A DNA stretch of 31,616 nt from a virus, in the IMG/VR virus record IMGVR_UViG_3300044994_000194, positions 1 through 31,616 of that record. One strand, written 5' to 3'. Below the pieces are notes generated by a model that saw only the letters and a program-made list of their open reading frames with translations, was not told the origin of the DNA and did no database searches. The stretch's first letter is position 1; each line of letters opens with the position of its first letter. Positions 22,438 to 29,673 of the stretch are shown here, piece after piece. The position numbers and the translations under genes were made by a program.

Positions 22438-23187
22438 CTACCCGTGGATGACTGGCGTCGAGTTGCGGGACTGAGCGGCATCGACCTCGATCTTCCCGAT
22501 CGGCGTCTGGATCGTGTCGAGCACCGCCGAGTGCTTCGAGATCGCGGTCCTGACCTCCGGCGCAATCTCCGCGAGGGCGTCGATCGAGGCGACGATTCGG
22601 TCGATCGCGACGGTCTTCTTCGTGACCTCTCCCTCTAGCTCCATCTTCGCGCGCGCCAGGCGGGCGCCTCGCCAGACAAGGCCGCCGATAATGGGCGCCA
22701 ACGTCGCGGCTCCAGGGATGACCATGCCGATCAGAGACCCGACGTCTGACCCGGGGTTCGGCGTCCCGGGCGCTGACGTCTCGATGATCTTGTCGGCGGT
22801 CGCGATCCTCTTTCCGAGTTCGCTCGAAATTGCGGTCGCGCGGTCGATCTTCGCGAAGGCGTCCTCGATCCGCTTCGAGATCTCGACCATCGACGACGAT
22901 GCGGCGGCGATCGCGGTTTCGACGGCGGCGCGTTCGGCGCTCCCGGCTTCAAGCTGAGCGACCGTGGCGACGAGTCGTTCTCGATCGGATCGGAGGTCGT
23001 CGATCGTCTTCTGCATCGAGGCGACGTTCGCGTTCGCGCGCTTGACGGCGGCGTCGATCTCCGTCTTCTGATCGACGACCCTCTCCCGCTGCTGGCGGAC
23101 GGACTCGGTTGATTCGCACCCGGGAGAGAAGGCGATGATGGGCGCAAGGCACAGGACGGCGACGAGACTGGTCGTTCTGATCTTCAT
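22438..23187 (-). CDS. Lipoprotein-like coiled-coil protein
   Basis: A 249-residue protein. It starts MKIRTTSLVAVLCLAPIIAF then SPGCESTESV, which resembles a lipoprotein signal with a Cys after a short hydrophobic stretch; S-P-G before the Cys is a poor lipobox, so lipidation is uncertain. Residues about 28-120 are a long charged coiled coil. A hydrophobic Gly/Ala region (SLIGMVIPGAATLAPIIGGL) near 155-175 may be a membrane segment or helix packing face. A spanin-like or envelope role is possible but unproved. The start at 23187 is supported by GGAGA a few bases upstream; an earlier in-frame start would run into the terminator at 23240-23278. Confidence 0.6.
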   Translation of the reverse strand: MKIRTTSLVAVLCLAPIIAFSPGCESTESVRQQRERVVDQKTEIDAAVKRANANVASMQKTIDDLRSDRERLVATVAQLEAGSAERAAVETAIAAASSSMVEISKRIEDAFAKIDRATAISSELGKRIATADKIIETSAPGTPNPGSDVGSLIGMVIPGAATLAPIIGGLVWRGARLARAKMELEGEVTKKTVAIDRIVASIDALAEIAPEVRTAISKHSAVLDTIQTPIGKIEVDAAQSRNSTPVIHG

Positions 23188-23239: not shown

Positions 23240-23278
23240 AAAAAACAACCCGCGCCATCCCCGGAGGGACGGCGCGGG
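23240..23278 (-). terminator. Rho-independent terminator of the LRV-repeat operon
   Basis: On the minus strand an eight-pair stem (CCCGCGCC/GGCGCGGG, 23249-23256 and 23271-23278) extends inward with a TCCC/GGGA helix and a CGGA loop. It is followed by TTGTTTTTTG. This is a textbook intrinsic terminator, 55 bases after the stop of the last repeat gene. Confidence 0.85.
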
Positions 23279-23332
23279 CAGGAGAGGAGAGAGAACCGGA
23301 TGATTCTAGCCCCGGAGGATCGGGTCGAGGAT

Positions 23333-24103
23333 TTAGGGGGCGGCGAGGCGCACGGTCCAGTGCGCGTCCGTCATCGCGCGCTCGCGCTGCTCGGGCGACA
23401 GATTGCCGAGTCCGACGGCGGCGGAACGCACGTACCAGTGAGAATCCGTCAACGCCCGCTCATGCTGATCGGGACTCAGACCGCCGAGTCCGACGGCGGC
23501 AGCACGCACGGCCCAGTGCTCATCAGTCAAGGCCCGCTCAAGCTGCGCGGGCGTGAGATTGCCCAGTCGGGCGGCGTCGGAACGCACGTACTCGCTCGCG
23601 TCCGTCAACGCCCTTTCACGCTGCTCTTGGGTCAGGTCGCCCAGCCTGACGGCGGCGGCCCGCACGTACTCGCTCGCGTCCGTCATGGCCCGCTCGTGCT
23701 GATCGGGACTCAGACCTCCGAGTCCGACGGCGGCGAGGCGCACGCCCCAGTCATCATCAGTCATAGCCCGCTCATGCTGATCGGGACTCAGACCTCCGAG
23801 TCCGACGGCGGCGGAACGCACGTACCAGTGAGAATCCGTCAACGCCCGCTCGTGCTGATCGGGACTCAGACCTCCGAGTCCGACGGCGGCGGAACGCACG
23901 CACCATTCAGCATCCGTCAGGGCCCGCTCATGCTGATCGGGCGACAGGCCGCCCAGTCTGACGGCGGAGGCCCGCACGCACTCGCTCGCGTCCGTCAACG
24001 CCCGCTCATGCTGCTCGGGCGACAGGCCGCCACATTCGACGGCTTCGGCACGCACTTCCCAGTCATCAGCAGTCAGGCGTTGCTCTTGCTCACGTGCGCT
24101 CAT
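23333..24103 (-). CDS. LRV/HEAT-like repeat protein A, ten 26-residue repeats
   Basis: A 256-residue protein built almost wholly from ten 26-residue units of the form ALTDxxWxVRxAAVxLGGLSPDQHER. The D-x5-VR-x-AAV signature and the length fit leucine-rich-repeat-variant or HEAT-like solenoids, which usually bind protein. Variable residues sit between TD and VR: ASEC, AEWC, SHWY, DDWG, ASEY, EHWA, AHWT. Repeats 4 and 9 share SHWYVRSAAVGLG, pointing to recent duplication. AAAGGAG six bases before ATG 24103 fixes the start; an ATG two codons earlier abuts the ribosome site. The last unit is truncated (LAAP). It is the distal gene of a three-gene operon. Function is unknown; host-protein binding or decoy is inference. 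Confidence 0.82.
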   Translation of the reverse strand: MSAREQEQRLTADDWEVRAEAVECGGLSPEQHERALTDASECVRASAVRLGGLSPDQHERALTDAEWCVRSAAVGLGGLSPDQHERALTDSHWYVRSAAVGLGGLSPDQHERAMTDDDWGVRLAAVGLGGLSPDQHERAMTDASEYVRAAAVRLGDLTQEQRERALTDASEYVRSDAARLGNLTPAQLERALTDEHWAVRAAAVGLGGLSPDQHERALTDSHWYVRSAAVGLGNLSPEQRERAMTDAHWTVRLAAP

Positions 24104-24194
24104 GTCCATCTCCTTTCGTCCCGGCGACCAGCCGGATCGGGTCGGCCGTCGGGCCGACATCATCGTCGCGCGATCGCTCAATCTGGCCACTCAT
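24090..24194 (-). CDS. Possible mini-gene coupled between repeat genes
   Basis: Thirty-four residues beginning MSGQIERSRDDDVGPTADPI, ending GHERT. The start overlaps the stop of repeat gene B in ATGA, with GGAAGGAG at a good distance, and the end overlaps the start of gene A by 14 bases. Strong ribosome-site placement argues for translation, perhaps only to couple A to B. Nothing in the peptide is recognisable. Evidence is limited to layout. Confidence 0.4.
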   Translation of the reverse strand: MSGQIERSRDDDVGPTADPIRLVAGTKGDGHERT

Positions 24195-24823
24195 GGCATA
24201 CTCCTTCCGGCGGCGGCGGCCCGCACGTACTCGCTCTCATCAGTTAGCGCGCGCTCGTGCTGGGCTTCGCTCAGACCGCCCAGTCTGACGGCGGCGATGC
24301 GCACTTGCCAGGCAAGATCCGTCAACGCCCGCTCATGCTGATCGGGACTCAGACCGCCGAGTCCGACGGCGGCAGCACGCACGTACCAGTGCGCGTCCTT
24401 CAGCGCGCGCTCATGCTGATCGGGCGACAGATTGCGGAGTCTGACGGCTTCGGCACGCACGGTATCGCTCGTGTCCGTCAGAGCCCGCTCATGCTGATCG
24501 GGACTCAGACCGCCGAGCCTGACGGCGGCAGCACGCACGGCCCACTCACGATCCGTCAACGCCCGCTCGTGCTGATCGCGCGTCAGACCGCCCAGTCTGA
24601 CGGCGGCGAGGCGCACGACCCACTGAGCATCCTTCAACGCCCGCTCGTGCTGATCGCGCGTCAGACCGCCCAGTCTGACGGCGGCGATGCGCACTTGCCA
24701 GGCACGATCCGCAAGCGCCCGCTCGCGCTGCTCGGGGCTCAGGCCGCCCTTCCTGACGGCGGCAAAGCGCACGTACCAGTCATCAGCAGTCAGGCGTTGC
24801 TCTTGCTCACGTGCGCTCATCAT
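24191..24823 (-). CDS. LRV/HEAT-like repeat protein B, eight 26-residue repeats
   Basis: A 210-residue paralogue of protein A with eight units. It shares the N-terminal cap SAREQEQRLTADDW, then carries units such as ALKDAQWVVRLAAVRLGGLT and ALTDREWAVRAAAVRLGGLS. Positions between D and VR differ from those of A (RAWQ, AQWV, REWA, TSDT, AHWY, LAWQ, ESEY). The C-terminus ends abruptly in AAAAGRSMP, as if a repeat was cut and the downstream ribosome site reused. AAAGGAG six bases upstream of ATG 24823 fixes the start. It lies 20 bases after gene C. Same fold and likely role as A. Confidence 0.82.
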   Translation of the reverse strand: MMSAREQEQRLTADDWYVRFAAVRKGGLSPEQRERALADRAWQVRIAAVRLGGLTRDQHERALKDAQWVVRLAAVRLGGLTRDQHERALTDREWAVRAAAVRLGGLSPDQHERALTDTSDTVRAEAVRLRNLSPDQHERALKDAHWYVRAAAVGLGGLSPDQHERALTDLAWQVRIAAVRLGGLSEAQHERALTDESEYVRAAAAGRSMP

Positions 24824-24843
24824 TGCCTTCTCCTTTCGCTTCG

Positions 24844-25248
24844 TTACCGCCGCTCGGTGCGGGCGGCTTCCCGCACTTCCCAGTCCTCATCTCTCAGCGC
24901 CCGCTCGCGCTGCTCGGGGGTCAGGCCGCCATCCATGACGGCGGCGAGGCGTACGGACCAGTGCTCATCAAGCAGCGCCCGCTCGCGCTGCGCGGGCGTC
25001 AGGCCGCCCTTCCTGGCGGCGGCGAGGCGCACGCGCCAGTCATCATCAGTCAACGCCCGTTCACGCTGCGCGGGCGTCAGGCCGCCCTTCCTGACGGCGG
25101 CGGCACGCACATACCGGTCACGATCCGTAAGCGCCCGCTCGCGCTGCTCGGGGGTCAGGCCGCCCTTCATGACGGCGGCAAAGCGCACGTACCAGTCATC
25201 GGCAGTCAGGCGTTGCTCTTTCGTTGTCCTCTCAATGGTGCTCATCAT
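24844..25248 (-). CDS. LRV/HEAT-like repeat protein C, five 26-residue repeats
   Basis: A 134-residue paralogue, promoter-proximal in the operon. After a short distinct start (MMSTIERTTK) it has the shared cap EQRLTADDWYVRFAAV, then five units of the form ALTDDDWRVRLAAARKGGLT, with Lys replacing Leu before GG and PAQRER or PEQRER at the end. AAAGGAG five bases before ATG 25248 fixes the start. The sigma70-like promoter at 25313-25341 lies directly upstream, with a leader of about 60 bases. Together with B and A it forms a paralogue ladder of 5, 8 and 10 repeats. Confidence 0.82.
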   Translation of the reverse strand: MMSTIERTTKEQRLTADDWYVRFAAVMKGGLTPEQRERALTDRDRYVRAAAVRKGGLTPAQRERALTDDDWRVRLAAARKGGLTPAQRERALLDEHWSVRLAAVMDGGLTPEQRERALRDEDWEVREAARTERR

Positions 25249-25312
25249 TTCGTCTCCTTTCTCAGCCGCCCCATCGCGGTTTCTTCGCCGGGATGGTCCC
25301 GGCAACGAGACT

Positions 25313-25341
25313 ATTATCGCCCGGACCACCCCCCGCGTCAA
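25313..25341 (-). promoter_or_regulatory. Sigma70-like promoter of the LRV-repeat operon
   Basis: On the minus strand TTGACG (25341 to 25336) and GATAAT (25318 to 25313) are separated by exactly 17 bases, close to the bacterial consensus. Transcription would start near 25306 and reach gene C at 25248. A-tracts lie just upstream. Confidence 0.75.
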
Positions 25342-25351
25342 CAGTGATTTC

Positions 25352-25378
25352 CCAAAAAATCCAAAAAATCCAAAAAAT
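25352..25378. repeat. Three tandem CCAAAAAAT units (A-tract, UP-like)
   Basis: The nine-base unit CCAAAAAAT occurs three times in a row at 25352, 25361 and 25370, in otherwise GC-rich DNA. It lies about 10-37 bases upstream of the -35 box of the repeat operon, where UP elements act, and may also serve the divergent direction or bend DNA. Confidence 0.6.
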
Positions 25379-25391
25379 CCATCCAAACATC

Positions 25392-25470: not shown

Positions 25471-25740
25471 ATGAACATCGTGCGAACCCTCTCGTTCACG
25501 GCCGCGAAGTTCGACGACGGCAAGATCCGCGTCGACGTCTTCGAGGACCATGACATCGCGGCGATGAACTACCACCTCATGAGATCTATCGGCGGACCAC
25601 GTCTGATCATCCTCGGGCGTGGCATGCCGGGCGATACCCGCGAAGAGATCGCCGGGAAGGTCGCGCGGCTCATCGCCAAGGCGGAGGGAAACCTATCCAC
25701 GTTGCCTCGACGTCCCGTCTCTTCTCTCTCCCGGACTTGA
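25471..25740 (+). CDS. Small early protein of unknown function
   Basis: An 89-residue protein, first of the rightward early genes. It has FTAAKFDDGKIRVDVFEDHD, a hydrophobic strand RLIILGRGMPGDTREEIAGK and an amphipathic helix VARLIAKAEG. No catalytic motif is visible and I do not recognise it. AGGAG at 25460-25464 gives a good start. The C-terminal 12 residues (RRPVSSLSRT) look disordered. Confidence 0.6.
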   Translation: MNIVRTLSFTAAKFDDGKIRVDVFEDHDIAAMNYHLMRSIGGPRLIILGRGMPGDTREEIAGKVARLIAKAEGNLSTLPRRPVSSLSRT

Positions 25741-28902: not shown

Positions 28903-29673
28903 ATGAACGAAGATCGAACCGGTCCGGGACTGACGGACGAAGATCCGTTCGTCCGATACGACGCCGTCTGTGCCGGCGGCCTGGACCCAGCCCAGCACGA
29001 GCGGGCGCTCACCGACGACCACCCGATCGTTCGCCGCGCTGCGGTCTACGCCTGTGGACTGAGCGAATCCCAGCACGAGCGGGCGCTCACTGATGATCAT
29101 TGGATTGTCCGAGCCGCAGCCGCGAGGATTGGTGGGATGAGCGAAGCTCAACTGGACCGTGCGCTCTGCGACAAGTTCCCGTTTGTTCGAATCCCCGCGA
29201 TCGCCGCGGGTAGTCTCCGCGACGATCAATGGGAGATGATGCTGACGGACCCGGACATGTTCGTCCGACGCGCGGCAACCGTTTTCTGCCGTCTGACAGA
29301 CTCGCAACGACAGCGCGCCAAGAACGACGACGACGGCTATGTTCGCCTCGCCGCTGAGTTCTCGGAGAAGTACGGAGGCGTGCCCGTCGTGCCCGACATC
29401 GACGCGGCGATCCTGGCGGCGATCACCGACGGCGGAGGGCTCGACATGAAAAAATGGCACTGCGGGACGACGCACTGCCGGGCAGGGTGGGCGATCCACC
29501 TCGCCGGCGAAGCGGGGTACGAGCTCAAACGGCTCATCGGTCCGCTCGAAGCCGGCGCGGCGATCTACCGACGGTCTCGGCCCGGGAAGAGGATTCCGAA
29601 CTTCTTCGCGCCGCGTCAAGCCGCGCTCGAAGACATACGACGGTGCGCGGCCAGCGCAGGAGGTGCGGCGTGA
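28903..29673 (+). CDS. LRV-like repeat protein D with Cys/His C-terminal domain
   Basis: A 256-residue protein. Residues about 10-165 are six diverged 26-residue units of the same kind as proteins A-C (ALTDDHPIVRRAAVYACGLS, ALTDDHWIVRAAAARIGGMS), with QHERAL conserved in the first ones. The C-terminal 90 residues differ: WHCGTTHCRAGWAIHLAGEA (185-204) and a later SRPGKRIPNFFAP, a pattern I have seen in phage and bacterial proteins of unknown function. C187, H191 and C192 could bind metal. AAAGGAG at 28888-28894 supports ATG 28903. Its stop overlaps the next start in GTGA. It shows the repeat family is older in this phage than the operon alone suggests. Confidence 0.78.
   Translation: MNEDRTGPGLTDEDPFVRYDAVCAGGLDPAQHERALTDDHPIVRRAAVYACGLSESQHERALTDDHWIVRAAAARIGGMSEAQLDRALCDKFPFVRIPAIAAGSLRDDQWEMMLTDPDMFVRRAATVFCRLTDSQRQRAKNDDDGYVRLAAEFSEKYGGVPVVPDIDAAILAAITDGGGLDMKKWHCGTTHCRAGWAIHLAGEAGYELKRLIGPLEAGAAIYRRSRPGKRIPNFFAPRQAALEDIRRCAASAGGAA

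Follow-up and report, generated by a model that had tools for sequence, protein, structure and literature searches.

The window analysed here is the 31,616-nt (31.6 kb) virus record IMGVR_UViG_3300044994_000194, positions 1 to 31,616, which carries siphophage genes for a terminase, a portal, a capsid, a tape measure and a J-like tail protein; no integrase was listed among the window ORFs scanned. The repeat genes, the signals around them and their neighbours are the following:

22438-23187, minus strand: flanking gene, coiled-coil and lipoprotein-like
23279-23248, minus strand: intrinsic terminator-like hairpin, 14-pair stem with 11 GC pairs and a T6 tail
23333-24109, minus strand: gene C, 255-258 aa, 10 repeat units
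24191-24823, minus strand: gene B, 210 aa, 8 repeat units, predicted alpha-alpha superhelix
24844-25248, minus strand: gene A, 134 aa, 5 repeat units
25341-25313, minus strand: promoter-like site TTGACG-17-GATAAT upstream of A, 10/12 consensus matches
25352-25381, no strand assigned: A-tract array, 3.3 copies of CCAAAAAAT (TRF), between divergent genes
25471-25740, plus strand: flanking gene of 89 aa
28903-29673, plus strand: gene D, 6 repeat units (28903-29370) and an HCRAGW domain (29371-29673)

An earlier note, made from the sequence, had described three paralogous repeat genes on the minus strand, and this description was borne out. The products of A, B and C are nothing but 26-residue repeats, with VR anchors spaced 26 residues apart, and a 78-nt period was recovered independently by TRF at 23349-24780 (18.2 copies) and 24872-25209 (4.3 copies). 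An AAAGGAG-type ribosome site was read from the sequence before each of the three starts, of which that of C is most likely at 24103 or 24109, in preference to the GTG at 24190. The block had also been placed between tail and early genes, which needs amending on the left side, where the neighbours are two conserved minus-strand membrane/coiled-coil genes and not the tail directly. Our best reading is that A-C occupy a variable site between this conserved gene pair and the siphophage early block. At the end of the contig (31195-31616), a G+C-rich unit of 114 nt occurs four times in an array that is cut by the edge; this array could be origin-like or packaging-linked, or it could mark an assembly breakpoint.

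The signals around the block were examined against shuffled sequences. The near-consensus promoter with its 17-base spacer is present and is the sole match in 4 kb, but with 0.3 matches per 4 kb in the shuffles it is not beyond chance by itself; its credibility comes from its place, which makes it suggestive by position. The site is identical between the strains compared. The A-tracts were found upstream as described, and the terminator downstream was recovered as a strong hairpin with a T6 tail, a consensus match only, which is the strongest of 5 such matches (shuffles give 1.6). The reading of A-C as a putative transcription unit with its own signals is thus supported at the level of sequence motifs.

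The repeats had been labelled LRV, a membership that we reject, since PF01816 reaches only 11.4 bits, in one stretch of the window, against a cut-off of 21.6 bits. PF02985 (HEAT), by comparison, scores over its curated cut-off of 23.5 bits in all four paralogs (A 44.2, B 55.9, C 65.7, D 41.6). The best stretches span about model positions 5-25 of 31, with about 16-19 positions matched, and it is in the 26-residue unit that A-D differ from the HEAT families (PF02985, PF13646). For B, AlphaFold gives a model (pLDDT 94.7) with two antiparallel helices per unit, at unit positions 3-10 and 15-23, which form a superhelix. The best PDB structure match of the model is the alphaRep 4zv6 (Z 17.1, rmsd 3.6, 204 aligned), with the LRV crystal structure 1lrv a close second (Z 15.8, rmsd 5.0, 192 aligned); for repeat proteins, a Z near 13 can reflect merely a shared arrangement, and we therefore limit the claim to a HEAT/LRV-like solenoid. 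The best PDB sequence-profile match is likewise an engineered alphaRep binder (6ft5, 4.9e-24). B thus resembles LRV in its predicted fold, whereas the repeats lie under the LRV Pfam cut-off and the sequence match to 1lrv is weak (8e-4). Among the BFVD matches are proteins of uncultured phages that bear the name Leucine rich repeat variant. The best reading of these predictions is that the products of A-C are HEAT/LRV-like alpha-solenoids without a catalytic domain, and the earlier statement that the repeat products have no enzyme domain holds for A-C.

A few other assignments were considered and judged to be repeat artefacts, namely Cas11 for C (a PADLOC model match at 7.8e-4 without a passing stretch) and the excisionase, holin and Avd families for the repeats (weak PHROG matches). 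Distant relatives of the repeats are few. A tblastn search of 50,697 phage records with B, D and a typed repeat composite gave no match, a null that low-complexity filtering makes weak, and a single-sequence search with D found no relatives. Besides two contigs of the same species, the sole cellular match is a Sideroxydans MAG (L124, 5428-6279), in which three 26-residue units stand at the end of a protein; the gene beside it resembles a cytosine methyltransferase by eye.

The likeness to alphaRep extends to the two-helix unit and to variable residues of the second helix that flank its VR pair. AlphaRep is artificial and its motif is 31 residues long, whereas the repeats in A-C are natural, have 26 residues and two extra variable positions (13 and 14), and their binding is putative. 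Variable surface positions are common in solenoids. Across the 19 full repeat units from which variability was taken, variability is highest at positions 13, 14, 16 and 19, and the residue is invariant at positions 1, 5, 7, 8, 9, 12, 17, 18 and 21. Codon positions 1+2 at the four variable positions differ in 0.63 of unit pairs, as compared to 0.26 for fourfold-degenerate third positions at invariant codons, a yardstick that is depressed by codon bias; codon 18 alone reaches 0.67 and is as variable as the hypervariable positions. In alphaRep (PMC3754942), the variable positions are 18, 19, 22, 23, 26 and 30. Aligning the VR pairs, a register that rests on our inferred VR numbering, puts alphaRep 18, 19, 22, 23 and 26 opposite unit positions 15, 16, 19, 20 and 23. 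The fit is good at 16 and 19 and partial at 15 and 23, alphaRep 23 faces the nearly constant position 20, and positions 13 and 14 have no counterpart among the variable positions of alphaRep. Both the partial agreement with the alphaRep register and the hypervariable positions support a putative recognition surface, and a binding role for the products of A-C is plausible.

Tandem DNA repeats readily expand and convert, and it could be argued that the arrays are simply duplicated repeats that drift without a function. We consider this very improbable, given that the three frames are intact and have ribosome sites, that the scaffold codons differ synonymously only, and that the variable positions outpace the fourfold sites.

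The comparison of strains suggests how the repeats change. A second strain of the same species (L008, contig 3300044998_001055) could be aligned to the window over 13.9 kb, in which 101 substitutions were observed. B and C together contain 38 of these in 1,410 nt (27 per kb), as compared to 63 in the other 12,459 nt (5.1 per kb), so that the two genes are about five times denser in differences than the remaining aligned DNA; the densest flank stretch of 1,410 nt has 19. Counted as tracts, the differences number 13 in B and C and 39 elsewhere (binomial p 0.0017). There is only 1 substitution in A, and fast change is hence not general to the operon. For 11 of the 13 tracts, the alleles of the second strain co-occur in another repeat unit of the window, where 2,000 null draws gave 5.1 tracts on average and at most 10. 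The clearest example is a set of 10 changed bases in unit 3 of B that are identical to unit B8; the other 2 of the 13 tracts have no donor unit. Silent and amino-acid-changing codon differences number 7 and 8 in B, 7 and 6 in C, and 23 and 26 in the flanks, for which eight genes or parts of genes (11,052 nt) were compared; silent and replacement changes are both raised in B and C, as conversion between repeats predicts. A further strain, L007, shows 3 differences from the window. As regards a diversity-generating retroelement, no reverse transcriptase was listed for the window ORFs scanned against PHROGs, in a contig that may be partial.

The earlier note had proposed a comparison of relatives for presence or absence of the block. 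A search of 35 records with B found the repeats in 2, both of them contigs of the same species, and not in the other 33, most of which are fragments or too distant for the site to be compared. Profiles of each gene of the flanking pair located the site in 1 of 28 records and in no record beyond G005, a scan with the flanking coiled-coil gene returned just three contigs that were already known, and a search with the helicase gave three remote relatives. The one relative with a verifiable site (n=1) is thus G005, a collinear 41 kb record with 81% identity to the window phage in TerL, 73% in J and 72% in the helicase. Both minus-strand flanking genes are kept in G005, with 45% identity for the coiled-coil, lipoprotein-like gene, as is the 89-aa gene opposite (40% over 68 aa). 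A-C are missing, and the 2.2 kb between the flanks holds a beta-helix gene together with two small genes on the minus strand. No match to the repeats or to D and its HCRAGW domain was found in G005, and the HCRAGW profile had no matches at all in the 28 records, which makes this zero weakly informative.

With A-C missing and the other genes in place in this single relative, the block behaves as cargo. The note's suggestion of a moron-type insert fits in several respects, in that A-C have their own signals by consensus, have no enzyme domain and are missing from G005; the part that did not hold is that the unit is self-contained, for which gene D is the reason. A-C resemble the phage morons in these putative signals and in their absence from a relative (n=1). 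Alternatively, A-C may be ordinary phage parts, such as scaffolds for assembly or adaptors in lysis that belong with the minus-strand pair, since they adjoin these two conserved coiled-coil/membrane genes on the same strand. However, a terminator-like hairpin stands between A-C and the pair, and G005 retains the pair without A-C, and we regard such a role as improbable.

Two other features of the site in G005 were observed. The beta-helix protein (L116, 3429-4850) begins with dockerin-like DFNNDGVF motifs, which we take to be typical of planctomycetes and which hint at a planctomycete host. Furthermore, two near-identical palindromes of the form AGTCCCG-NNN-TCGGGACT lie beside divergent genes (L116, 5454-5471 and 5843-5860) and look like candidate repressor operators.

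When the protein encoded by B was searched against the window, a further match appeared at 28927-29355 on the plus strand, within gene D. This fourth paralog, which the earlier note did not list, is located in an early, replication-type block, after a gene for an SNF2-type helicase and before an HU-like gene. The first unit of D is similar to that of A-C, while its repeats are visibly more diverged from one another than are those of A-C. Contrary to the picture of a self-contained repeat operon, the same repeats thus occur together with an extra domain elsewhere in the genome: the repeat is not confined to the cargo block, and A-C are not its sole home in the phage.

Only D contains the C-terminal domain, which matches phrog_31265 (function unassigned in PHROGs) at 1.4e-22 and is not found in A-C. 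No Pfam family was found for the domain, and its model (pLDDT 83) had no Foldseek match in the PDB at E 0.001, with a best VIA-align Z of 2.0; its sequence resemblance to ribosome-binding factor A (0.0015) is weak and was judged to be due to chance. A motif scan of viral contigs identified 19 loci (L127-L145), in all of which a repeat array precedes the HCRAGW domain: 10 pentapeptide, 5 Cys-rich and 4 12-mer arrays. An alignment of 19 domains shows no variation in the core H-C-x-T-T-H-C-R-A-G-W except at x. A profile scan reported 410 relatives, and array classes were read for the best 79 of these, which comprise 67 pentapeptide arrays (2 ending at a contig edge), 3 12-mer, 1 Cys-rich, 3 hexapeptide and 2 LTSIGG arrays, 1 array with SQGASLTAPVLA repeats and 2 loci without a clear array (L148, L165). 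In the union of both scans (92 loci, 6 contig places being shared), 90 loci have arrays, with classes assigned by regular expression and by eye. The domain in these other loci follows at least six unrelated kinds of array, from the pentapeptide, Cys-rich, 12-mer and hexapeptide arrays to others, and is C-terminal in D as well. No HEAT-like array was seen among the 92 loci examined, and D therefore represents a further array class.

By tblastn, the domain of locus L141 had one match among 50,697 phage records and one among 72,556 plasmid records, where the annotation is that of a pentapeptide repeat protein, and the domain of D itself matched 2 phage records. Three loci in which the domain stands behind left-handed-beta-helix-like hexapeptide arrays (L146, L166, L169) have sample numbers near those of the strains of this phage. 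By eye, the HCRAGW genes at L132, L140, L145 and L166 adjoin RecT-, exonuclease-, cytosine methyltransferase- or primase-like genes, and a location in the early region seems to be common for these genes.

The presence of D raises the possibility that the four genes form one system, in which A-C, as partners or regulators of D, would compete with the solenoid-HCRAGW protein or form assemblies with it. The four genes lie in one genome and have the repeat in common, D begins with a unit similar to the first of A-C and sits between the SNF2-type helicase and the HU-like gene, and G005 is without a match to either the repeats or HCRAGW, so that A-C and D could come and go together. Yet a second repeat ORF was not detected by regular expressions in 17 of the 19 motif-scan loci, and in the remaining two (L131, L133) the second repeat gene itself carries the domain; the greater divergence among the repeats of D also speaks against it. 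On balance, we think such a partnership unlikely.

We favor, with a probability of about one half, the hypothesis that A-C constitute an accessory cargo operon for alphaRep-like proteins that act by binding and whose diversity arises through conversion between repeats. The conserved residues would form the scaffold of the solenoid, and the about four to six variable positions per unit, at the start of the second helix and along one face, would form the recognition surface. Conversion between units would reshuffle these surfaces, which might enable the phage to retarget its binding. The proteins would most likely bind, and thereby block or sequester, a protein of the host or of a rival; we infer binding and sequestration, and likewise the target, the timing and expression in a lysogen. 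D would join the same solenoid to a conserved domain at its C-terminus, one that is coupled to other arrays in other phages, and A-C may be stand-alone versions of the recognition part of D. A more tentative proposal, less likely than not, is that phages share a modular recognition system, in which a single conserved and early-expressed HCRAGW domain would carry, in different lineages, unrelated solenoid or repeat arrays (pentapeptide, Cys-rich, 12-mer, hexapeptide, HEAT-like 26-mer and others) as exchangeable, recombining recognition surfaces; this phage would also make the arrays by themselves, from its cargo operon, as free binders or decoys.

In the one open-access library searched we recognised neither a HEAT-type phage cargo nor the HCRAGW motif, although descriptions may exist elsewhere. 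If the hypothesis of a cargo operon is true, A-C would be the equivalent in nature of an engineered library of binders, with surfaces that are reshuffled by recombination between repeats and no reverse transcriptase seen. Likewise, if one small domain does indeed stand behind at least seven unrelated repeat classes, the HEAT-like class included, this would point to a common phage function that is as yet unnamed.
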